Assembly: GCF_005503555.1 (NCBI RefSeq)
Contig: NZ_SCNG01000002.1
Coordinates: 62,001-126,000, forward strand
DNA length: 64,000 nt
Reading direction: 5' to 3'
DNA from: Rudaea sp. 3F27F6
GTDB lineage: Bacteria; Pseudomonadota; Gammaproteobacteria; Xanthomonadales; Rhodanobacteraceae
This document shows positions 28,022-50,978 of this stretch, piece by piece. Both the position numbers and the translations under genes were made by a program. Within the stretch, counting starts at the first letter, position 1; every line of letters starts with the position of its first letter. A model generated the notes under the pieces. The model did no database searches. It was not told the DNA's origin and saw only the letters and a list, made by a program, of their open reading frames with translations.

Positions 28022-29173
28022 TCAAGCGACCTGCCGTAGAGCGCGCATCTGCTCCGATTCGCGCCGGTCGGTCAATTGCGGTGGACCCGATGCTCCCTCG
28101 TTTGCATGACGCCTTTGCCAGAACGGCCGATCCGACCAGCGCCGTTCACGGCCGTAGTATTGCGCAAGCGTCTCTCGATAGCCGGTAAACTCGTCGGCGA
28201 TGAAATCGCGGTAACGTGTGCGGCCGCGCTCGTCGCCGCGCAGCAGCGAATCGGCCACGGCGTAAGAGGCGAACACGCCGGAGCGCAATGCTTTGGCGAT
28301 GCCTTGCGAGGACAAGGGATCGAACGCCGATGCGGCATCGCCCACCGCAAGCATGGGCAACGCCGCCGGCACGGAACGGTGCAACGACGCAGCCGGATAA
28401 AGCTGCGGAGCCTCCAGCGGCGTCAGCCCGGCCGCAAGCGCGCGCATGCACCGGGTCGCATCGAGACGTTGCAGCCAGCCGTCGAGACCGGCCAGACCCT
28501 GCTCGCGCACGATATCGCTGTCGCTCATGCAGGCGAGTACGCGCGTGCGGTCCGCCAACGCGGTCGCATACCACCACCCGTCCGCGCACGGCTCGACCGT
28601 CAGGTCGATCGGCTCGGCTTGCGGAGCAAAGCGTACGACGCTCGCGATCAATCGATCATCGCGGCGCGTGACGATGCCGAGCTGACGGCACAGGCTCGCA
28701 TTGCGGCCGGTCGCATCGACGAGGAAACGCGCCGTATGGCAGCCGCCGTCGCGGAAGCGAACCGCCCAGCCTTCGTCGAGCCGCGTCACCGACGCCACGT
28801 GATCGCGCCGCCAGTCGACGCCGCGCTCACGTGCAGTCTGCGCGAGCAGCGCATCGAAGCGTTCGCGATCGAGACGCCACCCGCACTGATGTACACCGTA
28901 GAGGAATTCGTTCGCGATCGGGTGTTCGCTGCCCCATGCCGATTCGGTGCGATACGCACGCACGTGACCGTCGCCGACGAAGCGTTCGCGAATACCGAGG
29001 TGATCGAGAAATACGCCGGCCTGCGGCGGCAAGGTCTCGCCGAGATTGCGCGGACTCCGCGTGCCGGGATCGGCGACGCAGACGCGCAGCGCCGGCGCAT
29101 AGTTGCGCAGCGAGATGGCTGCGGCGCAGCCGCCCGGACCGCCGCCGGCGATCAGAACGTCGAAGTCGGCCAA
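28022..29173 (-). CDS. LodB-like FAD-dependent maturation flavoprotein (tryptophan hydroxylase type)
   Basis: A 383-residue flavoprotein with the FAD dinucleotide motif GGGPGG at 10-15, a central VDATGR and a GD motif in LAVGDAASAFDPLSSQG. The start is a TTG four bases after the stop of the preceding gene, so translation is probably coupled. Two genes upstream is a LodA-like oxidase. In the known LodA/LodB and GoxA/GoxB pairs, the B flavoprotein hydroxylates a tryptophan of the oxidase to begin cysteine tryptophylquinone formation. Position in the operon is the main reason for choosing that role over halogenase or geranylgeranyl-reductase-like relatives. Confidence 0.82.
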   Translation of the reverse strand: MADFDVLIAGGGPGGCAAAISLRNYAPALRVCVADPGTRSPRNLGETLPPQAGVFLDHLGIRERFVGDGHVRAYRTESAWGSEHPIANEFLYGVHQCGWRLDRERFDALLAQTARERGVDWRRDHVASVTRLDEGWAVRFRDGGCHTARFLVDATGRNASLCRQLGIVTRRDDRLIASVVRFAPQAEPIDLTVEPCADGWWYATALADRTRVLACMSDSDIVREQGLAGLDGWLQRLDATRCMRALAAGLTPLEAPQLYPAASLHRSVPAALPMLAVGDAASAFDPLSSQGIAKALRSGVFASYAVADSLLRGDERGRTRYRDFIADEFTGYRETLAQYYGRERRWSDRPFWQRRHANEGASGPPQLTDRRESEQMRALRQVA

Positions 29174-29177
29174 TTGC

Positions 29178-29600
29178 TCAGTCGCTTCTGACCGCGTAGA
29201 ACGAGGCCACCACGCCGGCCGGCGCGACCGTGCCCGGCTCGCCGCCGGAGTGCGGGATGGTGCGAATCACCGAGCCGACAAGGGCGGCACGCTGATCGAC
29301 GCCGTTGGGCCAGTGCGGCACGAGGTAGCACTCGTAGTCGTAGATCCACTTCTCGCCGCCGACGACGCCGACGCCCTGAAAGCGCGCGCGCCCCGGCGTG
29401 CCGTATTGGCGCGAACCCTTGAGCGTGAGCTGCCAGGTCGAGCCGTCGCCGATCGTGCCTTTCAATATCTCGCTCGGCGCCTCCTCGATGACGATCGTAC
29501 CGAGACCGAATTCGAGTTTGTCGAAATCGATTTTGCCGTCGGGATCGTTCAACAGGCTGCGATAAGTCCAACTGCCGACGAAGGGATTGCTGCTGCTCAT
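29178..29600 (-). CDS. Small unknown protein between LodA-like and LodB-like genes
   Basis: 140 residues from an ATG with GGAG six bases upstream. There is no signal peptide, transmembrane segment or cysteine-rich motif apart from a single Cys in YECYLVPHW. Alternating hydrophobic segments (WTYRSLL, GTIVIEEAP, STWQLTLKG, ARFQGVGVV, KWIYDYECYLV, ASFYAVRS) suggest a small beta-barrel or lipocalin-like fold. I do not recognise the family. Its place between oxidase and maturase, with a four-base gap to the latter, suggests a role in maturation, folding or substrate handling of the oxidase. Confidence 0.75.
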   Translation of the reverse strand: MSSSNPFVGSWTYRSLLNDPDGKIDFDKLEFGLGTIVIEEAPSEILKGTIGDGSTWQLTLKGSRQYGTPGRARFQGVGVVGGEKWIYDYECYLVPHWPNGVDQRAALVGSVIRTIPHSGGEPGTVAPAGVVASFYAVRSD

Positions 29601-29656: not shown

Positions 29657-31912
29657 TCAGTTGCGTTCGGCCGCGACGAATTTCGGCGAGGCGAGATCGG
29701 AAGAAGCCTGGCGGCGCTGCTCGGGCGTCAACGCAGGATTCGGCACGACGAACGGCAACTTCGACCACTCGCTGACCATCTTCAGGTCGCCCGCGTTGGT
29801 CTGCGGCACACCGCGGCTCCAGTCCAGTTGCGAGAGATTGCCGCCGCCGATGTTTTCCCAGACTTGCAGCGGGCGGTGCGCGGGCCACCACAGCGTTTCC
29901 CAGACCTTGCGGCTCGCCGCGAGACGCGTGTCGCCGACGCTCTCCGGATAGAGGTTGTTCCAGTCGGCGTAGGTGATGTCGATGTTTTGCGTCGAGCATT
30001 CGTTGAAATCGGCCTGCCACGGCAGCGCCATCGACTTGGTCAGATCGCCCGGCTGCAGGCCCGTGTCGAAATCGTTGTTCTGGCTCAGCGGGTTGTCCAT
30101 CGAATAGGTGAAATCGGCAATGTCGTTGCCGGTCGAAACCTGGTTCGCCTGCGCCGCGGTCTGGAAGAAATCCGAAAGCGTGCGGTCGGCCTTGACCCGG
30201 TAAGGTTCCCAATAGATCGACGGATTGCGCAGCAGCCAGCCGATCTCGCCGCCGGGACAGAACGCGCCGCCGAGCACGTTGCTGAGCACGTCGCGATCGA
30301 GTTCGCGTCCGCTGCGCGGCGGCGGAATCGTCGCGTAAGGCAGGAACGGCGAATAACCGGGCGGCAGCCAGCCCATCGCCTTGTCGTCAATGAAGCGGCC
30401 GTCCGCCCATTGCTTGAGGATGAACAGCTGATAGTCGGTCAGGCGCAGGAATTTCGACGGTGCCGAGTTCGTCAGCGGATTGTCGCCGCACAACAAGGGC
30501 ATCAACGGCAGGTTGTGCACGCGGCTGCTGATGCGGTCGACGACTTTGAACTCGTTTTCTTCGCCGGGCAGGCGCAGCAGATCGAACAGGAAGGTGCGCA
30601 TCGCGCGATAGTCGTCGCGGATCCAGCGGCCTTGCGCGTCGGGGCCGTCACTGCGGCGAGCGGTTTCGAACGCCGCTTCGCCCTGATTCGCATTGGCGCG
30701 CAACAGCATCTGCGGGCGCGCCGCGTCGCGTTCTTCCTGCGAGGCGAAGTACTGCGGCGCGACGCAGAGTTTGTAAGGATCGAAGGTACCGCGGTTCTGC
30801 TGGTCGTGCGGAAAGTTCGACTGCCCGAGCGCGTCGGTGAGCCAGCGGAATTCGTCCGGCCGATAGAGGATCGGCCAGATGTCGCGGAAGAACCAGGGCC
30901 GATAAGCCTTGTTCCAGGTCAGCCGCGACGCTTTCCAGTGCGCGAGCTGTCCGGCGTTGTGCGCGTCGATGCACTGCGGATCGTCGAACGTGCCGAGCGC
31001 GCCGTAAAGTTCGGTATCGGCCGCGAACTGGCGCAATGCCAGATCGTGCATCACATCGTCGGCGGTGACCATGTCGAGAATTTCGGGCACGAAGCGCGGA
31101 TAGCCGGCGACGACCCAGGCCGGGTATTCGACGTCGACATAGCGCAGCTTCTGCACTTCCTCGGAGAACATGACCAGGCGCGCCGTCACCGGACCGTCCG
31201 CGGTGTCGTCGAACCAGCCGTCGTTGTTCGCGTAGTCGGCGATCTGCGGGCCGGCCGGGTTGCGCGTGTCGCTGCCGGAACGGCCGTGTCCGCCGAGGAC
31301 GATCAGCCGCCCGCTGTTGTCGGTCATCATCTCGCCGAGCGTGTCGATCGAGAACGGTTGCAGATTCTGCGGCGGGAACGTGGTCGCATAGGCGCCTTCG
31401 CCGCTGCGGTCGAAGCGCGCGCGGCGCTTGTCGGTCGCGTTGACGATGCGCGGACCCGGGTCGATGATCAGCTGCGTGCGGGCATCGCCTTCGATCTTCG
31501 CATTGCGCCGCGGCGCGTCCGGCGGATAGCCGTGTTCGCCCTCGGTCGCGTTGAAGCGGAACCAGCAGGCCTTCTTGTTGGCGAGCCAGACGCGCCAGCG
31601 GATGTCGACCAGAGTGCCGGTATTCCCGCCGCCTTCGATGCGATCGCCGAGCTTGAGCGGGCGCCCCTGTGGACTCTGCTCGTCGTAGACGTAAATCTGG
31701 AAGCGCGCCGCCTGGCGCTTCACGCGTCCTTCCGCATCTTTGTAGTGCGCGACGTAACGCGGCGTCACGCCGTCGGCGCCGTAGACCGGGTTGCCGAGCG
31801 AATCGCATTCCTGCGGCCGGCCTGCCGGCGTTTCCGGCGCCAGATAGAAATCGTTCTCGCTGTTGCCCAGCCGCGCAATGCCGACGCCGGGATGAATCTT
31901 GTAGCTTGGCAC
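29657..31912 (-). CDS. LodA-like cysteine tryptophylquinone amine/amino-acid oxidase
   Basis: A 751-residue protein starting at GTG with GGGAG about nine bases upstream, 17 bases after the tyrosinase stop. The opening KIHPGVGIARLGNS is the family signature of LodA-type proteins (lysine epsilon-oxidase LodA, glycine oxidase GoxA). Further family-like stretches are VLGGHGRSG, LTDYQLFILKQWADGRF, GGAFCPGGEIGW and LPWQADFNECS. Known members oxidise a primary amine with O2, releasing H2O2, and need a LodB partner, which is present. Which Cys/Trp pair makes the quinone cannot be fixed by eye; Cys in PLLCGDN, Cys in WQADFNEC and nearby Trp residues are candidates. No signal peptide is visible, as in LodA, which is nevertheless found outside cells. 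Substrate unknown. Confidence 0.88.
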   Translation of the reverse strand: MPSYKIHPGVGIARLGNSENDFYLAPETPAGRPQECDSLGNPVYGADGVTPRYVAHYKDAEGRVKRQAARFQIYVYDEQSPQGRPLKLGDRIEGGGNTGTLVDIRWRVWLANKKACWFRFNATEGEHGYPPDAPRRNAKIEGDARTQLIIDPGPRIVNATDKRRARFDRSGEGAYATTFPPQNLQPFSIDTLGEMMTDNSGRLIVLGGHGRSGSDTRNPAGPQIADYANNDGWFDDTADGPVTARLVMFSEEVQKLRYVDVEYPAWVVAGYPRFVPEILDMVTADDVMHDLALRQFAADTELYGALGTFDDPQCIDAHNAGQLAHWKASRLTWNKAYRPWFFRDIWPILYRPDEFRWLTDALGQSNFPHDQQNRGTFDPYKLCVAPQYFASQEERDAARPQMLLRANANQGEAAFETARRSDGPDAQGRWIRDDYRAMRTFLFDLLRLPGEENEFKVVDRISSRVHNLPLMPLLCGDNPLTNSAPSKFLRLTDYQLFILKQWADGRFIDDKAMGWLPPGYSPFLPYATIPPPRSGRELDRDVLSNVLGGAFCPGGEIGWLLRNPSIYWEPYRVKADRTLSDFFQTAAQANQVSTGNDIADFTYSMDNPLSQNNDFDTGLQPGDLTKSMALPWQADFNECSTQNIDITYADWNNLYPESVGDTRLAASRKVWETLWWPAHRPLQVWENIGGGNLSQLDWSRGVPQTNAGDLKMVSEWSKLPFVVPNPALTPEQRRQASSDLASPKFVAAERN

Positions 31913-31929: not shown

Positions 31930-34071
31930 TCAGTCGAGGAAGTTGAGCGAGACGCCTTCCATGCGCAGCAGGTCGGTCTCCTCGCGATAGTCGACGCCGA
32001 TCACGAGCAAGGTGATCTGCAGCGAATCCGATTTCTTCAGCAGCTCGCGCGCGCAGGCGCTGACGTCGATGCGGTGGTTGCGTGGTGTGTTGTGGTTACG
32101 CGGACGCACGTCGAAATCGCGCGCGCGCGACGGCGGCAGATCGCAATGCCCCGGGCCGCCGTAACAGGCGCCGTGGCCGAATACGGCGAGGTAGCCGGCA
32201 TAGTGCGGGTTGTCGTGAATCGGCGTCGACGCATCGGCGCCGGGCTGATTGAGGAACACGCGAATGAAGCAGGAACGCGCCAGTTGCGGAACCCAGTGCA
32301 GGCGCAGCTCGGCCTTGGTGAACGCCTTGACGCCTGCGTTGACCGTGATTGGCTTGGAAATGAAGCGGCCGACCGGCGTTTCCATGCCGACCGGAATAAA
32401 GAACGAACTGCGCACGTACTCGTAGCCGAAGCGTTCGGCGTTGAGCGTGTCGCGGATCGTGTAGCTCCACGGCGACAGCACCGAATCGAGATCGGCCGGT
32501 TCGTTGTTCGGATTGCGCTTCTGCCACTCCCACCAGAGGCGATCGACGTTGACGTGGATCGGCCAGAACACCGGGTCGTACGACGCGGTGAGGTTGCTGA
32601 ACATGTCGCCGAACGCCGGCTGCAAGTACATGTCTTCGCGCGTGTGGAACGCACGGCCCGAGGCGCGCACCATCGCGTTGCGGCGCTCGCCGAGTTCGCC
32701 CGCGTCGCCCGCGGCCGCCGTCGCGGTCAACGCCGACATGCCGCAGGCGTAGGCGCTCTTGCCCTGGTCCGGGTTCATGCCGCCGGTCCAGATATGCATC
32801 GTGTTGTGCGGGTTCTGATCGAGAAAGCCGAATGCCGCGTTGTACGCATTGCCGCCGCCGAAATCACGGAAGTTGTTGAGGCCGGTGATCTGGGCCATGT
32901 CGTTCGGCGACGGATAGTGATAATGGATGACTTGATTGATGGTGCCGCTCTGCCCTGCCGAATTCTGATACTCGGCCGGATAGCGCAGCGGATACCAGAG
33001 TGCATTCGAGTCGACCAGGGCGTCGATCATGCAGCGCCGATTGCGATCGGCCGGCGCCGGCGTGACGTCGGTGAAGCCGATCGTGTTGATCACGTAGCAG
33101 AAAAAATCGTGCTGCGAGGTGAACCGCTTGTGTTCCTTCGCCAGATCGAGGAATGCTTTGCCTTGTTTGCTCTGCTTGCCCAGGCCGAGCTGATCGATCA
33201 GCTTTTCCGCGGCCGGCAAGGTCAGATAGGCTTTGAACGACGCCGGAATCACGCAGCCGTCCTGCGGCGTGCCGTTGTGCCAGTACTGCGACATGGTCCA
33301 GTCCCAGTACGGCAGCGCCAGATCGGGAAAGAAGTCCTGCAGGTTCTGCTCGAACTCGTAAAGATAAGCGCGATGCCAAGGCAGGAAGCGCTCCCAGCCG
33401 TGCTGGCAGTGATTCTGATGGATCAGCGCCTGATTGTTGTAGCTGCGGCGGTCCTCGGGGAATTTGTCCAACGCGTAGATCGCACGGAACGCAGAGCGGT
33501 ACTGATCGACTTCGGTATCGCTCATGCAATCCAGATTCGGGCGCTGGCGCAGTTCACCCTGCCGGTAGCCCTTGCGCCGCCCCACTCCGGAGATCGCTTC
33601 GAACTCGGCGATCTCGCGCGCGAACACGTGCTGAATGATCGCGGGGTCGCCGTCGGGCGCGAGTTCGACCGTGTTGATGCGATCGTCTTCCGGACAACCG
33701 TCGTCGATCCACGCGGCAATGAACTGGATGTCTTCCTGCGCGACCGGCTTGCCGTTCCACGGCAGGCGCGGAAAGCGCGTGCCGTCGAACGGCGCCTCGG
33801 CGCGCAGGCCGCGGATCAATCCCGAGGCGTCGCTGCGGCACCAGGGTTTCGCCTCGGACGCACAGCACGAAGGCGGCGCGACGTCCGCGATCAGGCGAAC
33901 GCCGAACAGCTTGAACGTCAGCAAGTCGGCATACGGCAGGTCCCAAAATGCGACTTGCCCATTGCCGTAGTCGGCCTGCGCACCGGCCGCTGCGGCGGCA
34001 AGAATGCCCTTGACCTGCGCGTAGCGCGTTGCCGCTGCCTTGGATTTCGGTGAGGCCGTGGTGGCTGCCAT
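31930..34071 (-). CDS. Tyrosinase-family type 3 copper oxidase with extra N-terminal domain
   Basis: 713 residues from the ATG at 34071, with AAGGG seven bases upstream. Residues 1-180 are an added domain containing Cys clusters (SCC, PWC, DGC) and FDGTRFPRLPWNGKPV, without a heme motif. The tyrosinase core follows. Copper A ligands are His218 or His221, then His224 and His233 (in HGWERFLPWHR). Copper B ligands are His422, His426 (PHNTMHIW) and His506 (FWPIHVNVDRLWWEW). Residues from about 545 to 713 resemble the C-terminal beta-sandwich that shields the active site of plant-type polyphenol oxidases. It would hydroxylate or oxidise phenols to o-quinones. It lies between a c-heme gene and the LodA-like gene, and all read in one direction with short gaps. 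Confidence 0.9.
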   Translation of the reverse strand: MAATTASPKSKAAATRYAQVKGILAAAAAGAQADYGNGQVAFWDLPYADLLTFKLFGVRLIADVAPPSCCASEAKPWCRSDASGLIRGLRAEAPFDGTRFPRLPWNGKPVAQEDIQFIAAWIDDGCPEDDRINTVELAPDGDPAIIQHVFAREIAEFEAISGVGRRKGYRQGELRQRPNLDCMSDTEVDQYRSAFRAIYALDKFPEDRRSYNNQALIHQNHCQHGWERFLPWHRAYLYEFEQNLQDFFPDLALPYWDWTMSQYWHNGTPQDGCVIPASFKAYLTLPAAEKLIDQLGLGKQSKQGKAFLDLAKEHKRFTSQHDFFCYVINTIGFTDVTPAPADRNRRCMIDALVDSNALWYPLRYPAEYQNSAGQSGTINQVIHYHYPSPNDMAQITGLNNFRDFGGGNAYNAAFGFLDQNPHNTMHIWTGGMNPDQGKSAYACGMSALTATAAAGDAGELGERRNAMVRASGRAFHTREDMYLQPAFGDMFSNLTASYDPVFWPIHVNVDRLWWEWQKRNPNNEPADLDSVLSPWSYTIRDTLNAERFGYEYVRSSFFIPVGMETPVGRFISKPITVNAGVKAFTKAELRLHWVPQLARSCFIRVFLNQPGADASTPIHDNPHYAGYLAVFGHGACYGGPGHCDLPPSRARDFDVRPRNHNTPRNHRIDVSACARELLKKSDSLQITLLVIGVDYREETDLLRMEGVSLNFLD

Positions 34072-34161
34072 AGAGTGACCCTTCGCGCTGGCGCATCGCC
34101 GCGTTGAACCGGAGAACACGTTCGCGGCGCATCGGCGTGCGCCGCGAACGCGGAGTGCCTG

Positions 34162-35817
34162 CTATTTCGGCGTCTTCGCCAACTGCGCCTTCTGTGCGAA
34201 CAGCCAGGAGAAATCGGCGCGCAACTGGCCGCTGGTCGTCGTCGGCGTGATGTAGAGGCCGGCGGACGAATGGCAGCCCATGCAGCTTTCGCTCGCGAAC
34301 ACAGAGGTCGTGTCGGCCGGCATCTTCGTTGCCTTCTGATTCGCGGTCAGCCAATGCGCGGCGGGACAGTTCTGCGTTTCTTCCTGGTTGCAGGCCGCCT
34401 GCACGCCGACCTGGAAGTAGGTCTCCATCGTGATGTTGGTCAGGAACACCGGCGTCGGATTGCCGCCGGGCTTGTTCTCGATCGCGCCGGGCAGGCCCGT
34501 TGCCGGATTGGTCGGCGCCACCGACGGTTCGGTCGGCCACTGCGAATCGATCAGTTGGTAGTAGCGCAGCGCGGTGCCGGCCTTGTTGAGCGCGACTTGG
34601 GCCTGATCGTTGAGCGCAACCTTATCGGCCGGAATCGGAATCGCGCGCGACACCTGGGTCGGCGGCGAAGTCGCCCAGCTTCCATCGGCGTTCTGCGCCG
34701 GCGGCTGGTTCGGCACGCAGATCGGGCAGTTCGGATCGAAGAACGACGGCTTGAGCGCGGGGTGAGCGACGTTGTTCACCGATATGTTGTCGACTTGTTC
34801 GAACGTCGACCAGATCCATTGCGGCGAGCTTTCCGATTTGTGGCCGATGTGCATGCCGACGAGGCCGACCTGTACCGGGCACTGGCCGTTGGCCGGCTTC
34901 GAGCCGTCGGGGCATTGGCCGTTGGTCGTCGGCACGATCGCGTCCGTCCACAGATAGCGCGCCTTGTCGTCGGTCTTGGCGAGAATGCGCCAGGCGAGCT
35001 TCAACTCCCAGGAGCCGCTGCCGTCCTTGACGTCGACGCCGCGCGGCAGGTCGGCCGATTTGTCCGGGCTGCCGCCGGTGAACGCGATCTGGCCGTTGAT
35101 GTTGTAGAGCTTGTTGTTGCAGATGTAGCCGACTTCGTTCGGGTCCATCTGGATTTCATAGAACACGAAGTTGCCGTTCTGGTCGATCAGCGGCGCGGTG
35201 AACGCCTGCGTGATCTCGCTCAGGTCCTGCGCATGCCTGCGCTTGGCGTCGGCTTTGGTCAGCGGGCTGCGGTCGCCGACGGCGGAGATGTTGCCGAGCA
35301 GGCGGACGCGGCGTTTGTCGAAATCCTTCGGCAGCGCGAACGGCTTGAGATCGCGCGCCGCCGGCAGATTCACGTCGCGGGTCAGGGAATACGCCTGCAC
35401 ACCATTGTTTTTCTTGTAGCACGCGACGGGTTCACCGCCGTCTTCGCGGAAGATGTTCGTGCTCTCGTACCACGTGGTCCATTTCGGCGCACCGAAGCTC
35501 GTGTCGTTGATCGAAGGCGCGAACTCGCCCTTGTTGTTGGTCGGCCAATTCAAGGCAAGGAATGCCTGCCACGACCACAGATCGAACGCGCGCTGCACGT
35601 CGGCGAACTTCTTCTCGGCTTCGAGCTTCTTCTTCAGCGCCACATCGACGTCGCCCGGCAATTGGGTCGACAGCGCCGGATTGAAATTCGGGAAGTCGGC
35701 GAGGTATTGCGGGGCCGATGCGGACGGCGCGGCCGACAGCGTCTGCGGGCTCGTCGTGAGCAAGGTCAGGGCGCAGGCGGCAGCCAATCGTGCGGAAAGC
35801 CATAGCTTGTTGGTCAT
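34162..35817 (-). CDS. Exported protein with one C-terminal c-type heme motif
   Basis: 551 residues from the ATG at 35817. The signal peptide LAAACALTLLTTSPQTLSAA lies at about 10-29. The bulk is an unrecognised domain with family-like features such as FDLWSWQAFLALNWP and WKLAW-type aromatic patches (in SGSWELKLAWRILAK). A single CxxCH (CMGCH, 512-516) sits 40 residues from the end, flanked by ESCMGCHSSA. Such a heme would be attached in the periplasm by the Ccm system. As first gene of the tyrosinase/LodA operon, it could pass electrons from, or to, the oxidases, but no partner is evident from sequence. Proteins of this architecture are usually annotated as hypothetical or cytochrome c family. 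Confidence 0.75.
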   Translation of the reverse strand: MTNKLWLSARLAAACALTLLTTSPQTLSAAPSASAPQYLADFPNFNPALSTQLPGDVDVALKKKLEAEKKFADVQRAFDLWSWQAFLALNWPTNNKGEFAPSINDTSFGAPKWTTWYESTNIFREDGGEPVACYKKNNGVQAYSLTRDVNLPAARDLKPFALPKDFDKRRVRLLGNISAVGDRSPLTKADAKRRHAQDLSEITQAFTAPLIDQNGNFVFYEIQMDPNEVGYICNNKLYNINGQIAFTGGSPDKSADLPRGVDVKDGSGSWELKLAWRILAKTDDKARYLWTDAIVPTTNGQCPDGSKPANGQCPVQVGLVGMHIGHKSESSPQWIWSTFEQVDNISVNNVAHPALKPSFFDPNCPICVPNQPPAQNADGSWATSPPTQVSRAIPIPADKVALNDQAQVALNKAGTALRYYQLIDSQWPTEPSVAPTNPATGLPGAIENKPGGNPTPVFLTNITMETYFQVGVQAACNQEETQNCPAAHWLTANQKATKMPADTTSVFASESCMGCHSSAGLYITPTTTSGQLRADFSWLFAQKAQLAKTPK

Positions 35818-36074: not shown

Positions 36075-36311
36075 GCATTGATGACGAATTTCTTTTAGAA
36101 GAAAAAAGAGCAAGACAGCCCCCTCGGGCTGAGCAGCCCGATAAATTTTTCTTAAAAAAGCCCCCTTACTTCCGAGGCGGAAAAAAACATCTCCGTCCCC
36201 GGCAACACTGTATTTCGTAACGGCAGGCGCTTTCGGATCAAGCAAAATCCTGCGGCGTGAATTTAAATCAAATGCCGTTCACGATCTGCGAATCTCATCA
36301 ATCTTATTCTT
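36075..36311 (-). promoter_or_regulatory. Shared upstream element, copy A (oxidase operon)
   Basis: This stretch aligns with 46928-47160 over about 230 bp in the same orientation relative to an oxidase operon. The core at 36121-36169 has three blocks identical in both copies on the plus strand: CCCTCGGGCTG, AGCCCGATAAATTTTTC and AAAAGCCCCCTTAC. On the coding strand TCGGGCT/AGCCCGA forms a 7-bp stem with loop GCTC; copy B keeps the stem but has a different loop. A second conserved patch around 36263 (TAAATCAAA) is shared too. The core lies about 300-350 bases before the c-heme gene start, so it could be a distal operator or part of a long leader RNA. Confidence 0.7.
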
Positions 36312-36447
36312 GCGAAAAACGTGAGCTAAAACCTGTTTCATACGGCGCAAAAAAATGGTGGTGACAGAAAAATATTATCTGCCCGCCACAAAAATGTAAT
36401 GGAAAAACTTCCCGACCGATCCGCGTCGCCAGGCAGCGAATGAAACG

Positions 36448-40362: not shown

Positions 40363-41769
40363 TCAGGGATGCGGCAAGCGCATGGTGAAGCGCAGCACTT
40401 GTTCCGCATCGAGTAGCGCTTCAAGCTCGACGTTCATCGCATCGGCATAGCTCCGCGCGAGAGCGAGACCGAGCCCCGCATGATCGCGTGCGGTGCGCGC
40501 GCTGTCCTTGCGCCAGAACGGCTCGAACATCTGCACGACATCTTCGGCGCCAAGTTCCGGCGCGGAATTTTCGATCGTGATCGTCGTCACCCGCGCGTCC
40601 TCGCGCGAAGCGGCGCGCACTTCGCTGCCGGGCGGTGCGTAAGCGGCGGCGTTATCGACGAGGTTCTTGAGCAGCCCGCGCAGCAGGAGTGGCGGCGCAT
40701 AGCACGTCGCATCGACGTCGTATACAAAACGCAGATTGCGCTGCGGATAACGTGCGCTGGCCGCGGCCCACAATTCATCGAACAGCGAAGCAAGCTCGAT
40801 CCATTGCGGCAGTTCGCGGCCGCTTTCACCGCGCGACAACGCGAACAAGGCGCGCAATGTATCGCCCAGGCGCAGGGCGACTTCGCGCGTGACCTCGGCG
40901 GCGTGTTGCAATCGAGGCAGGTCGTCCGGGCGCAGCAGCGCCACGTCGTTGACCGTGCGCATTTCCGCAAGCGGTGTGTTGAGCTCGTGCGCCGCGTCGG
41001 CGAGGAAACGGCGCTCGCGGGCCAAGGCCATCTGGATACGCCCGACCTGGCGGTTCAAGGCGCCGGCGACGAGGCCCACTTCGGTCGGTCCTGAGGTGTC
41101 GAACTCGCGCGTGCGCTGTTCGATCGGGCTCACTTCGAGATCCGCAGTCAGCCGCGACAGCGGCGCAACGCCGCGGCGCGCCGCCCAGTACGCAACCAGG
41201 CCGGCGAGCAAGGTGAACGCGAGGCCGACCGTCACAAACAATGTCGCCAGATGTTGTAGCGCCGTATCGAGAGGCGCGGCGTCACGCCCGGCAATCACCA
41301 CGACTTCGACGTCTTTGAATCCCGCCGGCGTGGGCGTGTTTTCGTCCCAGCCCCACTGGGCATCCATGCGCTGGCCGGCGAGACGGAACCGGCGCCCGTC
41401 GGCAAGCGTGTGGTCGAGCAAGACCGGCCGGCCGCGCGGATGCGCGAATGACGGACGCCAGTCGCTGCCTTCGAGCAGCGGCGACACTTCGATCGTGTCG
41501 TTCGCCTCGCGGTTCAGCACGATGAAGAGCTTGTCGCCGTGCATACCGAAGTCGGTGAGCACGTCGGTATTCCAGTAGACGCCGATCTTGCCGTCGAGCG
41601 AGACATTGGTGACGTTCGCAATGCTGCGCAGGTCCTCGCGCACTTCGTCATCGAAGTGGGCGAGAAACATCGCGCGCAGAATCAGATACAGCACGACAAG
41701 CCCGAGTGCCGCGCACAAGCCGACGCCGAGCGCCACGTCGCGCGTGACCTTGGCGCGAAGCGTCGTCAT
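40363..41769 (-). CDS. Membrane sensor histidine kinase (OmpR-partner type)
   Basis: 468 residues; its ATG overlaps the response-regulator stop (ATGA), so the pair is co-translated. Transmembrane helices lie at about 12-35 and 175-200, enclosing a periplasmic sensor of about 140 residues. A HAMP-like region leads to the phospho-acceptor His in FLADAAHELNTPLAEMR. The ATP-binding domain shows the N box LVDNAAAYAPPG and the G box GLGLALARSYA. The sensor has no known ligand motif. Placed between the two oxidase groups, it is a candidate regulator of them, perhaps sensing copper, quinone or aromatic compounds; this is inference from position only. Confidence 0.9.
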   Translation of the reverse strand: MTTLRAKVTRDVALGVGLCAALGLVVLYLILRAMFLAHFDDEVREDLRSIANVTNVSLDGKIGVYWNTDVLTDFGMHGDKLFIVLNREANDTIEVSPLLEGSDWRPSFAHPRGRPVLLDHTLADGRRFRLAGQRMDAQWGWDENTPTPAGFKDVEVVVIAGRDAAPLDTALQHLATLFVTVGLAFTLLAGLVAYWAARRGVAPLSRLTADLEVSPIEQRTREFDTSGPTEVGLVAGALNRQVGRIQMALARERRFLADAAHELNTPLAEMRTVNDVALLRPDDLPRLQHAAEVTREVALRLGDTLRALFALSRGESGRELPQWIELASLFDELWAAASARYPQRNLRFVYDVDATCYAPPLLLRGLLKNLVDNAAAYAPPGSEVRAASREDARVTTITIENSAPELGAEDVVQMFEPFWRKDSARTARDHAGLGLALARSYADAMNVELEALLDAEQVLRFTMRLPHP

Positions 41770-42437
41770 TCCGCGCGCAGCATGTAGCCGAGACCGCGAC
41801 GCGTAAGAATCAGAGACTGCTCTCCGCGCCGGTCGATCGCTTTGCGCAACAACGAAACCGCGGCTTCGACCGCGTTGCTCGATAGCTCCGCGCCGTCGTC
41901 GTACAGATGCTCTTCGATATCGCGCGGACTGACTACTTCTCCACGGCGCCGCGCGAGATACTCGAGCAAAGCGTATTCGCGCGGCCGCAGCGCAATGTCG
42001 ACGCCGTCGCGCCGGACCTGCTTGGTCGAGGTGTCGATACTGAGGCTGCCGACGGCGATCGTGCTGGCCGGTTGGGCATAGCGCCGGCGCACGAGCGCGC
42101 GTACGCGTGCAAGCAACTCGTCGAAGTCGAACGGTTTGACCAGGTAGTCGTCGGCGCCGAGATCCAATGCGGTGATGCGGTCCATCATCGCGCCGAGCGC
42201 AGTCAGCACGAGGATCGTCGCAGGCCGCCCGCGCGCCCGCACCTCGCGGATCAAGTCGAAGCCATGCCGCTTCGGCAGCAGCGCGTCGACGATCAAAAGA
42301 TCGTAGTCGACTTCGCTGGCCGCCCACAGTCCTTCTTCACCGTCGGCTGCGGCGTCGACCGCGTAGCCGGCATCGCGCAAACCGAGCACGAGGTTTTCAC
42401 GCAGGATCAGGGAGTCTTCAACGACGAGCAGGCGCAA
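41766..42437 (-). CDS. OmpR/PhoB-family response regulator
   Basis: 223 residues, starting at TTG. The receiver domain has the acidic pair Glu7-Asp8, phospho-acceptor Asp in LLIVDALLPKRHG (near 51), Thr in VLTALG and Lys in LVKPFD. The winged-helix DNA-binding domain follows (LRPREYALLEYLARRRGEVV, then SNAVEAAVSLLRKAI and RGLGYML). It is phosphorylated by the kinase encoded by the overlapping gene. Targets could include the conserved upstream elements at 36.1 and 47.0 kb, since the pair lies between them, but no tandem direct repeat typical of an OmpR-type site was confirmed there. Confidence 0.92.
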   Translation of the reverse strand: MRLLVVEDSLILRENLVLGLRDAGYAVDAAADGEEGLWAASEVDYDLLIVDALLPKRHGFDLIREVRARGRPATILVLTALGAMMDRITALDLGADDYLVKPFDFDELLARVRALVRRRYAQPASTIAVGSLSIDTSTKQVRRDGVDIALRPREYALLEYLARRRGEVVSPRDIEEHLYDDGAELSSNAVEAAVSLLRKAIDRRGEQSLILTRRGLGYMLRAE

Positions 42438-42785: not shown

Positions 42786-44501
42786 TTATCCCGCTCCCGT
42801 CACCGCCGCCGAATCCGGCGCCGTCGTCGGTTCCGCCGCCGGCGCGGCGAGCTTGCCGCGACCGGTGATCAGGCCGACCACGTGATAGGCAGAGAGCACC
42901 GCGCCCTCCATCCAGCCCGGAAGATAGGACACTTGATCGCCGCTGACGACGAAACGCCGATCCGCGCGCAACAGACGCTTGTACGCAGCGATATGCTGCG
43001 GGTCGTCGCGTTTCCACTCGGCCCAGCCGCCGCCGATGTACGGCACGCTTTGCCAGGCGATCGACAGGCCGGTCGCGGCGGGCACGAAGCTGCGGAATTC
43101 CGCATGCAGTCGTTCGCCGCCCTGCAGACCCACTTCCAATCGGCGGTCCAGCGGCAGTTTGCCGAAGTCGGTCGCAACGGGTTTGCCGGGCGCGTCGTAG
43201 TTGTATGCGCCGGTCAGGACCGCCGGCCCTTTGGCGAAGTAGTCCGCCGAGGGATACCACATCTGCGTGATCGGGTGATCGATCCAGCTGATGCCGCCGA
43301 AAATCTGCGGGCCGTTGCTGCCGTCAGCATTCTTCAACACTTCCCAAAAGCGCGAACTGGCCTGCCAGCCGATTTTGCAGGTCGGCGCGAATTCGACGGC
43401 GCCCACGGCCTTGAGGAAGTCCGCCTCGAACGTTTCCTTCGCCAGCACTTTGCTGAGGTGCGGCAACGGGATTGTGCTGACGCAGTAGTCGCCCTTGATG
43501 CTGCTGCCGTCGGCGAAGCCGACCGTGATGCCGTCGTTGCCATTGGTGATGCGCACGGCAGGTATGCCGCGGCGGATATTCGGCTCACCGACCTCACGCA
43601 CGAGCGCATCGACGATGCGGCGCATGCCGCCGACCGGATGGAACAGCGTAGCCTGCCAGAGATAGTCCTCCGGCTGGTAGAAGCGGTGTTTCCAGAATTC
43701 CGAATTCAACAATGCGTCGAGTTTCAACGGCGGCGGTTGCACACCCGGATCGACCACGCCGGGATCGCGGATGTAGCCGCTGCGCGTCGAGCCGTTGTAC
43801 TTGTAGGGCGGATTGGAATTCGCGCTGATGTCGCCGAAGGTGCTGAGCAGGCTCAGCAGCTTCTCGCGGTCTGCGGGAGAAAGCCGATCGTCGAGGCACT
43901 TGGTATTGACTGCCTTCGCGAGCAGCTCGGCGATATAGCCGCGCGTGTCGTTGGCGACGCGGCGATTGGCGACCGCCTGCTTTTCGAACGCGGCGTCGGT
44001 CTGAAAACGGTTTGCACGCGTCTCCATGACGTAAGGCTCCAGCGCGACGCCAAGTTGCTGGCACAGTTCCAGAAGCGCGACGTGGTGATACGGTATGCGG
44101 CCGCAGCCCGCTTCGAAGTATTGCTTGTCGGGATCGCCCGTGAACTTGCACGCCTGCGCAGGCAGACCTTCCTGATAGATGACGTTGCGCCGTTCCCTGG
44201 GGTTGGTATTGACGGTGAAGTTGCGCCCGCCATAGCGGTCCAGCGCCTCGAATACCGCAACGGCGTAACCCAGTTGTTTCAGGCGCCATGCCGCGGTCAG
44301 TCCGGCGATGCCGGCGCCGAGCACGATCACGCGCTTGCCCTGACCCGGATTGCCGCTCAGGTCCGGCGGCCCCGCGTAGGCCTCGGGCACGGTCAACAGT
44401 CCCATGGCGACCATGGTTTCGTAGACGGCCGCCGCGCCGCCGGCGATGCCGACCATTTCGAGAAATTTGCGCCGCGTGGTGGGGATAGGTTCGTCGCTCA
44501 T
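42786..44501 (-). CDS. Tat-exported flavin amine oxidase / L-amino acid oxidase-like
   Basis: 571 residues with GAGGAGC upstream of the ATG. Residues 8-43 are a twin-arginine signal (TRRKFLEMVG, then a hydrophobic stretch to PEAYA). The FAD-binding motif VIVLGAGIAGLTAAWRLKQLG lies at 58-78, in part GxGxxG at 62-67; then AVFEALDRYGGRN. The C-terminal family motif is seen in VVSGDQVSYLPGWMEGAVLSAY. Enzymes of this class oxidise amines or L-amino acids to imines with H2O2 release. Export by Tat implies cofactor loading in the cytoplasm. It follows the multicopper oxidase gene by 187 bases on the same strand and is likely in its transcription unit. Confidence 0.88.
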   Translation of the reverse strand: MSDEPIPTTRRKFLEMVGIAGGAAAVYETMVAMGLLTVPEAYAGPPDLSGNPGQGKRVIVLGAGIAGLTAAWRLKQLGYAVAVFEALDRYGGRNFTVNTNPRERRNVIYQEGLPAQACKFTGDPDKQYFEAGCGRIPYHHVALLELCQQLGVALEPYVMETRANRFQTDAAFEKQAVANRRVANDTRGYIAELLAKAVNTKCLDDRLSPADREKLLSLLSTFGDISANSNPPYKYNGSTRSGYIRDPGVVDPGVQPPPLKLDALLNSEFWKHRFYQPEDYLWQATLFHPVGGMRRIVDALVREVGEPNIRRGIPAVRITNGNDGITVGFADGSSIKGDYCVSTIPLPHLSKVLAKETFEADFLKAVGAVEFAPTCKIGWQASSRFWEVLKNADGSNGPQIFGGISWIDHPITQMWYPSADYFAKGPAVLTGAYNYDAPGKPVATDFGKLPLDRRLEVGLQGGERLHAEFRSFVPAATGLSIAWQSVPYIGGGWAEWKRDDPQHIAAYKRLLRADRRFVVSGDQVSYLPGWMEGAVLSAYHVVGLITGRGKLAAPAAEPTTAPDSAAVTGAG

Positions 44502-44688: not shown

Positions 44689-46716
44689 TCAGTGATGGCC
44701 TGTGCTCACGCCGCCGGCGCCGTCCGGCAGGCGGATGCTGACGTTCTGCATCATGCCCTGATCCTCGTGATCGAGGATGTGGCAATGCAGGACGAAGTCG
44801 CCGATGTAGCGTTCGTAGCGCGTGCGTATGTAGACGCGATAAACGCCCTTCGGAGGGGTGGTACCCGGGAGCGGGCCCTTCGCCCAGAGCGTGTCCTTCC
44901 ATACGCCTTTCAAGCCCGCATACTGCGGGTCCACTCCTTTTCCGTCGGGATTGTCGACCGCATCGGGCAGACTGACGTCCTTTCCGTTCGGGTCGATGAT
45001 CTTTTCGATCTGGAACGGATTGACGTGGATATGGAACGGATGCCCGGCGCGGTGCGACTCCAGTTGCCACGTCTGCGCATCGCCGAGCTTGAGCACGCGG
45101 TCGATGCGCTTCGGATCGTACGGTTCGAGATCGCTCTGGTCCGTGCCGATTTCGAACGTCGTCTTCGGCTTGCTCGTATCGATGTAGAACACGAGGTGTT
45201 GCATGTTGCCCTTCACTTCGTCGTCGGTGATGTCGGGATGCGGCACGAATTTGCTCAGGCTCAGCTTGTTGCGCAGATCGGCGACGATCTGCGACTGCAC
45301 CGAAGCCGGCATGTTCGCCTGCGCGGACTTGACCAGCGTATCGACGATGAAGCGCTCGATGTCGGGCACCTTGTCGCCCGGCGCCACGTCGACGAAGCCG
45401 ATGACCTGGCGTCCCGTCGCGGCCTGCGTCACGCTGCCGGACGCCGGCGCGGAAGCGTTGACCACGCAGTAGCGTCCCGGCTCCGGAAACGCGACGAGCA
45501 GGTCATCGCGGTAGGCCGGTTGCAGCGTGGTCAGATTGCGCTTCTGCGCGTGCTTCATCGTCAACCCGTCGGAAGCGACGACGAATTGCGGCACGACGGG
45601 ACCCGAGCACACCTGGTCGGCGAACTTTTGCTGATCTTCCGGCTTGACCTTGAGTTGGGCGAGCGACTTCAGATTGCCGCTCATGCGGCGCAGTTGGAAC
45701 GAGATCGTGTCGCGCACGCCGGCATGGATCAGGCGCCAGCGCTCGAGCGTGCCGCTACGCGCCGTGAACGTCGGCAGCACCACGCCATTGATGCTGGTGT
45801 AGTGGCCGGAGTCGCTCCAGGATGTCGAACTGAGCTGATCGTAGGATTCGATCACGCCGGTTTCGCCCGGATTGCAGGTCCAGTCGATCTTGCCGTCCTT
45901 GTATTTGAGTTTGCCGTCGGCGCCGACGCAGGCGTACTGAATCTGCTGCATGACCAGGATGCGCTCGGCGAACGGATCGCCGGACGGCGTGCGCAGCAAG
46001 GTGTCGAGGTCGCCCTGGTGGCCGACGTCCGGTTTGCGATCGCCGCGCACGATCAGCGCGCCGCCCATGCCGCTCGACACTTGCAGCGCCGTCGAACCGT
46101 GGCGGTGGGTGTGATACCAGAACGTGCCCGAAGGATGATCCGCGGGGATGTTGTATTCGTACTGGAAGCTCACGCCGGGATTGATCGACAGCAGCACGTT
46201 GTCGCTGTTGCCGGTCGGCGACACCCACAGGCCGTGCGAATGCAGGTTGGTGCCGTTGAAGCAATGCGGCGTGTTCACCGGCAGGTGGCCGTTGGTGCAA
46301 TCGGGGTCGGCGGGCAGCTTGTTGTGCAGCGAGATGCGCACCGTTTCGCCCGGCGTGACCTCGATCGTCGGCGCGACGAACGGCGCGTTCGGATCGACGC
46401 CGCGGCCGGTATAACTACGCAGGTGCACCTTGTCCCACAGCCCCGAGGCGGGATTGAAAAGTTTGTTGTCGGTGTAGGCGATGTCGAGGTCGAGCGCCAC
46501 CTCGCGCGGCGCTTCGCCGCGCGGCAATGCGGTCGCCGCGAGGCGAAGATCCGAGCGCAGCAGCACGGGCGGATTGTGCAGCTCACGCGCGTCGGACGCA
46601 TCGGGTGCGTCGGCGGCCATGGCCGTAGACAGCGCGAAACCGACGGAGCAAGCCACGATGCAGCGTTTGATCGCCGACAGCAGGATCGGCCGCGGTCGCG
46701 AAATCGTCATAGTCAT
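44689..46716 (-). CDS. Exported multicopper oxidase (laccase-like)
   Basis: 675 residues; the ATG at 46716 is chosen because AGGGGG lies seven bases upstream and a signal peptide follows (CIVACSVGFALSTAMAADA). All four copper motifs are present in order: HSHGLW near residue 160, WYHTHRHG near 200, HPFHIHVNPFQ near 560 and HCHILDHEDQGMM near 645. The last provides the type 1 Cys, His and axial Met, so the enzyme should be active. It oxidises phenols or metals outside the cytoplasm, reducing O2 to water. Insertions between the domains make it longer than CueO/CotA (about 510-530). Its upstream region is homologous to that of the tyrosinase/LodA operon. Confidence 0.92.
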   Translation of the reverse strand: MTMTISRPRPILLSAIKRCIVACSVGFALSTAMAADAPDASDARELHNPPVLLRSDLRLAATALPRGEAPREVALDLDIAYTDNKLFNPASGLWDKVHLRSYTGRGVDPNAPFVAPTIEVTPGETVRISLHNKLPADPDCTNGHLPVNTPHCFNGTNLHSHGLWVSPTGNSDNVLLSINPGVSFQYEYNIPADHPSGTFWYHTHRHGSTALQVSSGMGGALIVRGDRKPDVGHQGDLDTLLRTPSGDPFAERILVMQQIQYACVGADGKLKYKDGKIDWTCNPGETGVIESYDQLSSTSWSDSGHYTSINGVVLPTFTARSGTLERWRLIHAGVRDTISFQLRRMSGNLKSLAQLKVKPEDQQKFADQVCSGPVVPQFVVASDGLTMKHAQKRNLTTLQPAYRDDLLVAFPEPGRYCVVNASAPASGSVTQAATGRQVIGFVDVAPGDKVPDIERFIVDTLVKSAQANMPASVQSQIVADLRNKLSLSKFVPHPDITDDEVKGNMQHLVFYIDTSKPKTTFEIGTDQSDLEPYDPKRIDRVLKLGDAQTWQLESHRAGHPFHIHVNPFQIEKIIDPNGKDVSLPDAVDNPDGKGVDPQYAGLKGVWKDTLWAKGPLPGTTPPKGVYRVYIRTRYERYIGDFVLHCHILDHEDQGMMQNVSIRLPDGAGGVSTGHH

Positions 46717-47433
46717 TGCAATTCCCCCTGAAATGTCTGAATGGACGAATGTGTAAATGCTTGGAAGCTGTGTTGCGATCGGCTTGCACAGAGATGCGGA
46801 ATAACCCTCCACGCGCCCGTCCGGCACCGGCGCGCAATCGGTAAACAAATGCGCATCCGCAAGGCTTGAGCAAAATCGGTTCGCCCTGCCCTGCGCATAC
46901 AGTTTGGGTAGCGAGGAATCGCGGAAAGCCATGTCGAATTCCTTTCAGCGAAAAACGGAGCGACAGAGGCCCTCGGGCTGCGAATAGCCCGATAAATTTT
47001 TCCCGAAAAGCCCCCTTACAACCGATGCGAAAGAAAAATCATTCGCTCTCGGCAATGCCGCACATCAGTTACCGCGGATGCTTCGTTTCCAGCACAGCTA
47101 TGCGCGGCAAATCTAAATCAAACGTAGCCGGTAATCTGAGATATTCATCGCGCTTACTTTATTAAAAATGTAAATTCGGCGCGTTTTATCCAATCCGGCT
47201 GCGCAACGACGAAGCATCTTTTTCCGCCGTGGAAGCATTATTGAAAAGATAAAATATCTCGGTGCAATTCCACGCCGGCAGGCGATGCGGCAAGGTTGAG
47301 CGACGGGGACTTGGAGCCGCCAGATTGGATGCGGCGCTTCGGCGGCGCTGGATGGCGATCGAAATTCATCGGAGCTGCCGCACGCCGATCTCGCTTGCGC
47401 ATCATGCATCGATCTGGCGAGAGAACTTCCGGA
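46717..47433. other. 717-bp upstream region of the multicopper oxidase gene
   Basis: No supported gene. The reading that extends the oxidase frame to 46932 is unlikely to be translated, as the signal peptide begins at 46716. The zone holds copy B of the shared element (46928-47160). From 47161 to 47433 I see AT-rich stretches and a patch at 47258-47345 that faintly resembles the start of an FMN riboswitch (see rejected items), but nothing I can support. Confidence 0.55.
46928..47160 (-). promoter_or_regulatory. Shared upstream element, copy B (multicopper oxidase)
   Basis: Homologous to 36075-36311, same orientation relative to the downstream oxidase. The core is 46970-47019. On the coding strand the TCGGGCT/AGCCCGA 7-bp stem has the six-base loop ATTCGC instead of GCTC, so the arms are conserved but not the loop. 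Between the stem and AAAAGCCCCC one base is missing relative to copy A, which argues against a coding role. The core begins about 255 bases before the oxidase ATG. Blocks near 46934 (GTCGAATTCCTTT versus GACGAATTTCTTT in copy A) and near 47113 (TAAATCAAA) are also shared. Confidence 0.7.
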
Positions 47434-48897: not shown

Positions 48898-49136
48898 TGC
48901 TGTATCTCCGGTAGGTTGGATGGGATAAGAATTGAACGATTGAGAGAACGTTCCTTTGCCCGGCTCTGGGTTTGTCCGCTGCGAAGCCCGGTCTTGCTCT
49001 GCACGCTTCCACTCGGGAAGTGTCGGAATTCAGTATAGGTACGGCATTCCGGCGCACCCAAACCGCTTACTGCAGCCCGGCAGCTACTCGTTGCATCCGT
49101 GATCCTGCGACGGTTCGTTGGCATAGACTGGCGGGC

Positions 49137-50234
49137 ATGATCGAAACCCACACCGGCATGCGTCCCACTCGTTGGCGCTGGATCGCGGCGATCTGGCTCG
49201 CGGGCGGATTGTTCGACGCAAGCCAGACCGTGCTGGTGATGCACGCGGAAGGCCGCCACCATCCTTGGCCGCCGCTCTTCGCCACCGAGCTGGTGTCCTG
49301 GCTGCCGTGGGCGCTCGCCACTTCGTTCATTGTCGATCTGGCGCGGCGCTATCCGCTCAATCGCGCCGTGAACCTGCGCGGCGCTGCCGTGCATCTGGCG
49401 GTCTTCATCTGCCTCAGCGTGATTACCGAGCTATGGTCCGCGTCGCTCCAGGTGCTCTTCAATCCGTGGGGCAATCGGCAGTGGCCGACGTTCGTAAACT
49501 CGTTCAGTACGACACTGATCTTCCAAGCGCTCACGTTTCTTATCGCCTACATGCTGATATTGACGGCCACTTATCTGGTCGATGCACGCGAGCGCATCGC
49601 GCGTCAGGCATCCGAAACGGCGCAACTCAACGAAGAACTCTCCAAGGCGCAGCTTGCTGCGCTGCGCAGCCAGATCGAACCGCACTTCCTCTACAACACG
49701 CTCAATTCCATCGCGGGCCTGGTACGCGATCAGCGCAGCGATCAAGCGGTCAGCATGATCGTCGGACTCAGCGAGTTTCTCCGCCGCGCCTCGGAGGATT
49801 CGAGCCGAGCGTTAGTGACTCTGGCTGAGGAAGTTGAATATCTGCAGCGCTATCTCGACATCCAGACAGTCCGCTTCGAAGAACGCCTTCAGATCAGCGT
49901 CGATATCCCGGCGGAGCTGTTGCAGGCGCGGGTGCCGAATCTGCTGTTGCAGCCGCTCGTGGAAAACGCGATCAAGCACGGCATTGCCAAACGTCTTGCC
50001 GGAGGAAACGTGCGCGTTGCCGGCATGCGCCGTGACGACAAACTTTTCCTCAGCGTCTACAACGACGCGCCGACGTCAGCTGCCGACTCGCCGGCAACGC
50101 ACACCGGCATCGGCCTCGACAATCTGCGCACGCGATTGCAAATCCTCTACGGCGGCGAGTCCGGCCTGCAACTCAGGCGTGTCGAGACCGGCGGTGTGGA
50201 GGTTGTCGTCACCCTGCCCTTTATGGAGGCGTGA
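49137..50234 (+). CDS. LytS/YehU-type sensor histidine kinase
   Basis: 365 residues from the ATG at 49137; an upstream open stretch in frame is not conserved. Four transmembrane helices lie within about 12-150. The His-kinase domain starts with AQLAALRSQIEPHFLYNTLNSIAGL, where the phospho-acceptor is the His of EPHFLYN, followed by the ATP-binding N box LLQPLVENAIKHGI and G box GIGLDNLRTRL. It is directly followed by a LytTR response regulator with no gap. Such pairs often control alginate, bacteriocin or cell-envelope genes. Confidence 0.92.
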   Translation: MIETHTGMRPTRWRWIAAIWLAGGLFDASQTVLVMHAEGRHHPWPPLFATELVSWLPWALATSFIVDLARRYPLNRAVNLRGAAVHLAVFICLSVITELWSASLQVLFNPWGNRQWPTFVNSFSTTLIFQALTFLIAYMLILTATYLVDARERIARQASETAQLNEELSKAQLAALRSQIEPHFLYNTLNSIAGLVRDQRSDQAVSMIVGLSEFLRRASEDSSRALVTLAEEVEYLQRYLDIQTVRFEERLQISVDIPAELLQARVPNLLLQPLVENAIKHGIAKRLAGGNVRVAGMRRDDKLFLSVYNDAPTSAADSPATHTGIGLDNLRTRLQILYGGESGLQLRRVETGGVEVVVTLPFMEA

Positions 50235-50978
50235 ATGACGTCTCCCGACCTGCCCGCTTCGCCGATACGCGCGCTGATCGTCGATGACGAATCCTTGGCG
50301 CGGCGCAACCTCAGCGTGCTTCTGCGCCGGGACCCCGATATCGGCGCCATCGTCGAATGCGCGTCGGGCCTGGAGGCGATCGAGGCCATGCAGAAATCGA
50401 ACTACGACCTGATGTTTCTCGACGTGCAGATGCCCGAATGCGGCGGCTTCGACGTACTGGAGCTGCTCGGCGCCGATCTGCCGCCGGCGATCGTCTTCGT
50501 TACCGCCTATGAAGAATATGCGCTCCGTGCTTTTGAAGCCGGAGCGCTCGACTATCTACTGAAACCGTTCGACGACGCGCGTTTCAGCCGCGCCTTGAAT
50601 CGCGCCAAAGACAAGATTGCGCATTACTCGCCGCCGCAGTCGCACCAGGCGAAACGGCTCGTGGTGAAAAGCCGCGGACAGGTGCTGTTTCTCGATGTGG
50701 CGGACATCGACTGGGTCGAGGCGGCCGGCTACTACGCCTGCCTGCATGTCGGCACTGACACCCACATCCTGCGGCGGACGCTGTCGGATCTCGAGCGCGA
50801 CCTCGGCGATGAAAAATTCGCGCGCATCCATCGATCGATCATCGTCAACCTCGGCAGAGTCCGCGGGCTTGAGCTGCAAGACAGTGGAGACTACGAAGTC
50901 GTCTTGAACTCGCAGGATCGATTGCGCCTGAGCAGGCGCTTCCGCAAGAGATTCGAGGAGCGTCTAAGTGCCCGCTGA
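50235..50978 (+). CDS. LytTR-family response regulator
   Basis: 247 residues, starting on the base after the kinase stop codon. The receiver domain spans 10-130 with DDE near 17-19, phospho-acceptor Asp in LMFLDVQMPECGG, and Lys in LLKPFDD. A LytTR DNA-binding domain covers about 140-245 (LVVKSRGQVLFLDVADIDWVEAAGYYACLHV, in parts; ARIHRSIIVNLGRV). It acts with the adjoining kinase. No LytTR site pair was searched for exhaustively. Confidence 0.93.
   Translation: MTSPDLPASPIRALIVDDESLARRNLSVLLRRDPDIGAIVECASGLEAIEAMQKSNYDLMFLDVQMPECGGFDVLELLGADLPPAIVFVTAYEEYALRAFEAGALDYLLKPFDDARFSRALNRAKDKIAHYSPPQSHQAKRLVVKSRGQVLFLDVADIDWVEAAGYYACLHVGTDTHILRRTLSDLERDLGDEKFARIHRSIIVNLGRVRGLELQDSGDYEVVLNSQDRLRLSRRFRKRFEERLSAR

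Follow-up and report, generated by a model that had tools for sequence, protein, structure and literature searches.

The described systems closest to the locus studied here are lodA operons with a gene for 138–142 amino acids between lodA and lodB, as set out in the available text of PMC4417212. According to the same text, operons with small genes of this size also carry tyrosinase and multicopper oxidase genes, and no member of the small-protein group has been characterised (PMC4417212). The available part of PMC8523701 describes joint regulation of laccase, tyrosinase and LodA by PpoS/PpoR in Marinomonas mediterranea, and the available part of PMC2855505 also names PpoS as a regulator in this species.

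The locus analysed here lies in a 64,000-nucleotide stretch of DNA from Rudaea sp. 3F27F6 (the window) and resembles the ‘group ID’ lodA operons (for example, that of Bradyrhizobium japonicum USDA6), for which the accessible text of PMC4417212 gives LodA-like, small protein, LodB-like, tyrosinase and multicopper oxidase genes. Its small gene encodes 140 amino acids and the gene order is tyrosinase, lodA-like, small, lodB-like; the likeness to group ID is drawn by gene content. Unlike in the group ID operons, the multicopper oxidase gene is not part of the same operon, but belongs to a second block, which has a copy of an upstream element to itself; the passages on group ID operons available from PMC4417212 mention no such element. 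As in M. mediterranea, tyrosinase, multicopper oxidase and LodA-type oxidase are encoded in different transcription units (PMC8523701 and PMC2855505, in the parts available). PpoS/PpoR is described there as a BarA/UvrY-type system, whereas the two-component system encoded here is CopR/CopS-like, and joint control is reported for M. mediterranea, whereas here we infer it from the shared upstream region only.

Two related non-coding stretches, of ~265 bp (copy A) and ~270 bp (copy B), lie ahead of the two oxidase operons. The DNA directly upstream of the two transcription units is homologous, with similarity limited to this upstream DNA, and on sequence grounds the element is probably a duplicated cis-regulatory (promoter/operator) region that would keep the two halves of the oxidase set co-expressed. 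Duplicated or transferred bacterial promoter regions, including those of horizontal regulatory transfer, are a known concept. The present case is like them in that a non-coding control region would have been copied ahead of non-homologous genes, and unlike them in that both copies lie within one cluster of one genome and the function is a predicted one.

Genes of the two oxidase blocks

Judging from spacing and strand, blocks A and B are likely operons (Table 1). The first gene of operon A encodes a protein with a c-haem motif that matched no Pfam or NCBIfam family, and the genes of the two operons are not homologous (different Pfam families; z = 1.2 for the gene starts in the segment test described below). 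The multicopper oxidase gene is in a separate block, ~8.9 kb upstream of operon A’s first gene. Genome-wide, there is one tyrosinase-domain match and one LodA_N match, both in block A, and there are five Cu-oxidase_2 genes; because the genome holds two copies of the element, only the Cu-oxidase_2 gene of operon B can have it. As a separate observation, the multicopper oxidase frame stays open for a further 72 codons ahead of the likely start (46717–46932, minus strand), and an ATG at 46932 in this frame directly follows a purine-rich AAAGGA, located where copy B ends.

Table 1 Features of the two oxidase blocks and their upstream element (window coordinates).
Feature	Position	Strand	Basis
Copy A, shared upstream element	36080..36345	-	Alignment and segment tests
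Copy B, shared upstream element	46930..47200	-	Alignment and segment tests
Block 1, copy A, TTTGATTTAAATT	36260..36272	-	
Block 1, copy B, TTTGATTTAGATT	47110..47122	-	
Block 2, copy A, GTAAGGGGGC	36160..36169	-	
Block 2, copy B, GTAAGGGGGC	47010..47019	-	
Block 3, copy A, GAAAAATTTATCGGGC	36136..36151	-	
Block 3, copy B, GAAAAATTTATCGGGC	46987..47002	-	
Hairpin, copy A, TCGGGCT-GCTC-AGCCCGA	36124..36141	-	
Hairpin, copy B, TCGGGCT-ATTCGC-AGCCCGA	46973..46992	-	
Possible AT-rich outer stem, copy A	36092..36160 (arms 36092-36106, 36146-36160)	-	Not in best single-sequence fold
Possible AT-rich outer stem, copy B	46942..47010 (arms 46942-46955, 46997-47010)	-	In best single-sequence fold
Possible upstream hairpin, copy A	36172..36202	-	Predicted folds
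Possible upstream hairpin, copy B	47022..47052	-	Predicted folds
Operon A first gene, CxxCH haem-c motif (CMGCH) protein	34162..35817	-	Motif read from sequence
Tyrosinase-domain protein	31930..34119	-	PF00264
LodA-like protein	29657..31912	-	PF17990 and PF18417; NF038172 below cut-off
140-aa small protein, between lodA-like and lodB-like genes	29178..29600	-	
LodB-like flavoprotein	28022..29173	-	NF038171 below cut-off
Operon B first gene, multicopper oxidase	44689..46716	-	PF07731 and PF07732
Flavin-containing amine oxidase	42786..44501	-	PF01593
CopR/CusR-like OmpR-type response regulator, candidate common regulator	41766..42437	-	TIGR01387 below cut-off
CopS/CusS-like histidine kinase (start approximate)	40363..41715	-	TIGR01386 below cut-off

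An element shared by the two upstream regions

The Smith–Waterman score between the copy A and copy B regions was 608, compared with a mean of 309 (s.d. 25, maximum 406) over 500 shuffles and with at most 361 for other pieces of the window; in a whole-genome blastn search, the pair scored E = 7e-13. In segment tests (local scores, 300 shuffles per segment), z was 14.6 for the core (36080–36212 and 46930–47062), 5.0 for the 5′ part of the element (36213–36345 and 47063–47200), 0.1 beyond the upstream end and 0.0 for the stretch from the core to the start codons. The score and the core z value bear out the similarity of ~230 bp upstream of both oxidase operons that an earlier note on this DNA had described. 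The region reaches somewhat farther at its far end than that note had given; the approximate limits in Table 1 are set where the segment z values fall to ~0. The 3′ edge of the similarity is sharp: the core ends 262 bp (A) and 213 bp (B) ahead of the start codons, and conservation stops there.

The copies are 10.6 kb apart and have the same orientation relative to their operons. Both are intergenic, bounded on one side by a minus-strand gene that ends at 36479 (A) or 47434 (B) and on the other by the gene that opens the following block. Their GC content is 45–48%, compared with 62% for the window; low GC is common for promoter regions. In one global alignment they are identical in 183 of 250 columns (73%). 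A separate gapped-identity comparison (shuffled identity ~0.71) is uninformative because gaps cost nothing, for which reason local alignment scores were used instead. When all frame pairs were compared, stops and frame-breaking indels were found in the element, in agreement with the earlier exclusion of a coding function.

The longest runs identical between the copies are GAAAAATTTATCGGGC (16), GTAAGGGGGC (10) and TTTGATTTA (9), and the three core blocks described in the earlier note are real. The spacing from block 1 to block 2 is exactly 100 bp in A and in B (starts at 36260/36160 and 47110/47010). In simulations at the observed overall identity (183/250), however, an identical run of at least 17 columns arose in 5475 of 20000 cases. 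Such runs being common, the identical blocks alone are no sign of extra constraint, and as sequences they are by themselves compatible with uniform divergence.

Search for promoter and regulator sites

No sigma-70-like promoter was found in either upstream region, and a scan with consensus strings found no regulator box (CopR/CusR-like, ECF, sigma-54, GacA or FNR) in either intergenic region. When other upstream regions of the cluster were set against the two copies, z exceeded 2 in 2 of 32 comparisons, among them one with the response regulator’s own upstream region (z = 2.16), which is not convincing. A LytS/LytR-like sensor and response regulator pair (48972–50975, plus strand; the regulator BtsR-like, NF008677 below cut-off) adjoins block B and is a possible alternative regulator.

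Copies in the own genome and in other genomes

Both blastn and a covariance model built on the 130-column core found two copies only in the 5.7-Mb genome (third matches at E = 0.61 and E = 1.83, respectively). With both of them ahead of oxidase operons, the element is not a scattered dispersed repeat, the outcome that the earlier note had named as fatal to its proposal. Copy A had no match among plasmids, and the core pattern had none among viral contigs.

A DNA search recovered the element in 1 of 60 genomes, its own. With the model, 398 genomes from the order yielded matches at E ≤ 0.1 in 6 (the own genome and five at E 0.031–0.092) and 233 from the family in 7 (the own genome and six, best E = 7e-5), and 369 from the class yielded matches at E ≤ 0.01 in 2 (the own genome and one at E = 0.0017); these samples overlap, and these many-genome searches had stricter filters, with which weak matches are lost. 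The match in G426 (E = 7e-5) and one of two in G415 each consist of a GC-rich hairpin whose loop is rich in T and lack the remainder of the core. Those in G790 (E = 0.0017), G312, G396, G311 and G055 align with the upstream-hairpin portion but lack most of the core; all of these matches were rejected. Further weak matches, in G227, G291, G430, G471 and the second in G415, had E values of 0.046–0.094. A pattern scan of an 84,980-species collection, with gaps limited to 6–12, a range that includes the gap of copy B (12) and excludes that of copy A (13), returned nothing. An exact AAAAATTTATCGGGC in one locus (L007), with no further similarity apparent, was attributed to chance. Two genomes from a single genus of the family (L097, 1500–1550, and L099) share a recurrent hairpin, GC-rich and with a loop rich in T, CCTTCCTGCGGAAGGGGG...CCCCCTTCCG, which the model matches weakly.

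No copy was found by the model over 54 orthologue loci (one match, E = 6.4) or, at E ≤ 1, over 25 further loci, which include 2 flanks and 4 other multicopper oxidase loci of the own genome; 15 loci with partial c-haem protein matches (L012–L026) were covered by a motif scan, and some loci (for example, L046, L052, L082 and L083) have little upstream DNA. In Dyella silvatica, a candidate with short collinear blocks by eye, ~650 bp upstream of the c-haem gene (L044, 4300–4355), was rejected on its tile ranks, which under three scoring schemes were 501, 517 and 270 of 7608 tiles against copy B and 3290, 2376 and 1072 of 7608 against copy A. Comparing the same two upstream regions within relatives gave z = 2.5 (G030) and 0.8 (G339). 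Conservation in relatives, on which the earlier note had staked its proposal, thus did not emerge: no credible copy was found, and the element is known only from this genome among those searched, a weak test, with no other genome found in which both blocks are arranged as here.

Orthologues and gene neighbourhoods

Counting the own genome, the c-haem protein has matches in 16 of the 398 genomes from the order, and in two besides the own they span almost the full length; it also matches at 40 loci in named genomes, the closest in Tahibacter soli (72%) and D. silvatica (71%). Its relatives occur in Proteobacteria, Bacteroidota, Acidobacteria and cyanobacteria. The multicopper oxidase has matches in 11 of 233 family genomes (own included) and in 7 of 11 named genomes, two of them partial only. 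The 140-amino-acid protein has a relative (39%) in a genome of the same genus (G013), where its gene directly follows a multicopper oxidase gene; in two Caulobacter genomes, the relative (41%) comes after a multicopper oxidase followed by a tyrosinase-like stretch. The T. soli relative (59%) is encoded ~2 kb away from a multicopper oxidase and on the opposite strand. In Methylocapsa (64%) and in two genomes of Saprospiraceae (51% and 49%), the gene separates lodA from lodB.

In the stretches examined, the other genes of the set are missing around the c-haem gene of G339, G030, Dyella and two Caulobacter genomes, and the multicopper oxidase occurs without the LodA set in five family genomes (L089–L093); finding either gene alone in relatives counts against a fixed gene set. 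No response regulator, kinase or amine oxidase of this kind was found next to the multicopper oxidase in the L089–L093 and G013 stretches, and a weak regulator/kinase pair lies near in one Caulobacter stretch only (L119).

Discussion

We favour a duplicated control region because only two copies were found in the genome, both intergenic and each preceding the gene that opens an oxidase block. The low GC content counts towards a promoter region, and the end of the similarity before leaders and genes, together with the exact spacing of blocks 1 and 2, likewise speaks for a copied control region. A functional link between the blocks is suggested by the lodA operons with a 138–142-amino-acid gene, which carry both tyrosinase and multicopper oxidase genes (PMC4417212, available text), and by the relatives of the 140-amino-acid protein, which lie beside or near multicopper oxidases or beside lodA; the PpoS/PpoR co-regulation in M. 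mediterranea (PMC8523701, available part) also counts for this reading. Against it stand the lack of an identified promoter or regulator site, the missing element in relatives with orthologous first genes, and the compatibility of the identical blocks with uniform divergence. That the regulator, kinase and amine oxidase are mostly not beside the multicopper oxidase elsewhere counts against the two-component system as the candidate regulator.

The hairpin is real as sequence, with identical arms (TCGGGCT/AGCCCGA) and a loop that changes from GCTC (A) to ATTCGC (B), exactly as reported before. The earlier interpretation of kept arms and a changed loop as conserved DNA or RNA structure is unsupported, however, as the unchanged arms carry no covariation. 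Transcription from upstream of block 2 could instead yield a structured 5′ leader RNA, in which the upstream hairpin and an outer stem around the TCGGGCT/AGCCCGA hairpin would be read by a ligand, protein or small RNA and would control both operons after initiation; we think this unlikely. The RNAalifold consensus fold comprises 31 pairs, of which 3 differ between A and B in both partners and 2 in one partner, and was matched or beaten by 4 of 300 column shuffles but by 72 of 300 alignments in which the substitutions (copy B’s substituted letters only) were randomised; the changed pairs, which lie outside the hairpin arms, do not exceed what randomised substitutions give. The opposite strand behaved alike (1/300 column shuffles and 78/300 randomised alignments as low). 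The 133-nt core of copy A folds better than 199 of 200 shuffles, but that of copy B is ordinary (better than 180 of 200 only, with 20 as good), and the best single-sequence folds of the two differ outside the hairpin. The distance of the core from the start codons, with nothing conserved between, is mildly against a translational leader, and neither copy has a conserved gene-strand terminator after the core. In line with the remark that no named element of this kind was known, no Rfam family scored at gathering level in the window; with the limit relaxed to E = 10 there were three matches only (E 0.99–6.7), far below gathering scores. With two sequences to compare, we regard a structured leader RNA as possible but improbable. 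A broader proposal, an undescribed structured regulatory element (leader RNA or palindromic DNA site array) whose two copies would couple the split LodA/tyrosinase/multicopper oxidase halves and would have been copied as a unit at the split, seems to us equally doubtful.

Less probable still is that the element is a passive segmental copy or the relic of a small mobile repeat, drifted and functionless, that came to lie ahead of both operons by chance. Identical runs no longer than expected at 73% identity, the sharp 3′ edge and the failure to find the element in the relatives searched would all fit such an origin, but there are only two copies, both ahead of functionally linked operons and in the same orientation. 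Moreover, there are no terminal inverted repeats or target-site duplications (end scores were not above shuffles), and the plasmid and viral searches gave no copies. Mere chance similarity of two AT-rich intergenic regions is refuted by the alignment score, core z value and blastn E value given above, and we regard it as hardly conceivable.

If the element is indeed a duplicated control region, it would hold a promoter and the site of a common regulator, and the two halves of one LodA-type oxidase set would be transcribed together through it. It would have been copied in this lineage when the oxidase set became divided between two transcription units. The CopR/CusR-like two-component system encoded between the blocks may be the nearest candidate for the regulator, as a guess. 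A copied upstream control region is of a known kind, and a limited literature search found no description of such an element; both the present element and its association with a split LodA system seem to be new. The locus would offer a testable case of one bacterial gene set in two transcription units with the same control region, and may provide a handle on the joint regulation of LodA-type quinoprotein oxidases, tyrosinases and laccase-like enzymes outside Marinomonas.
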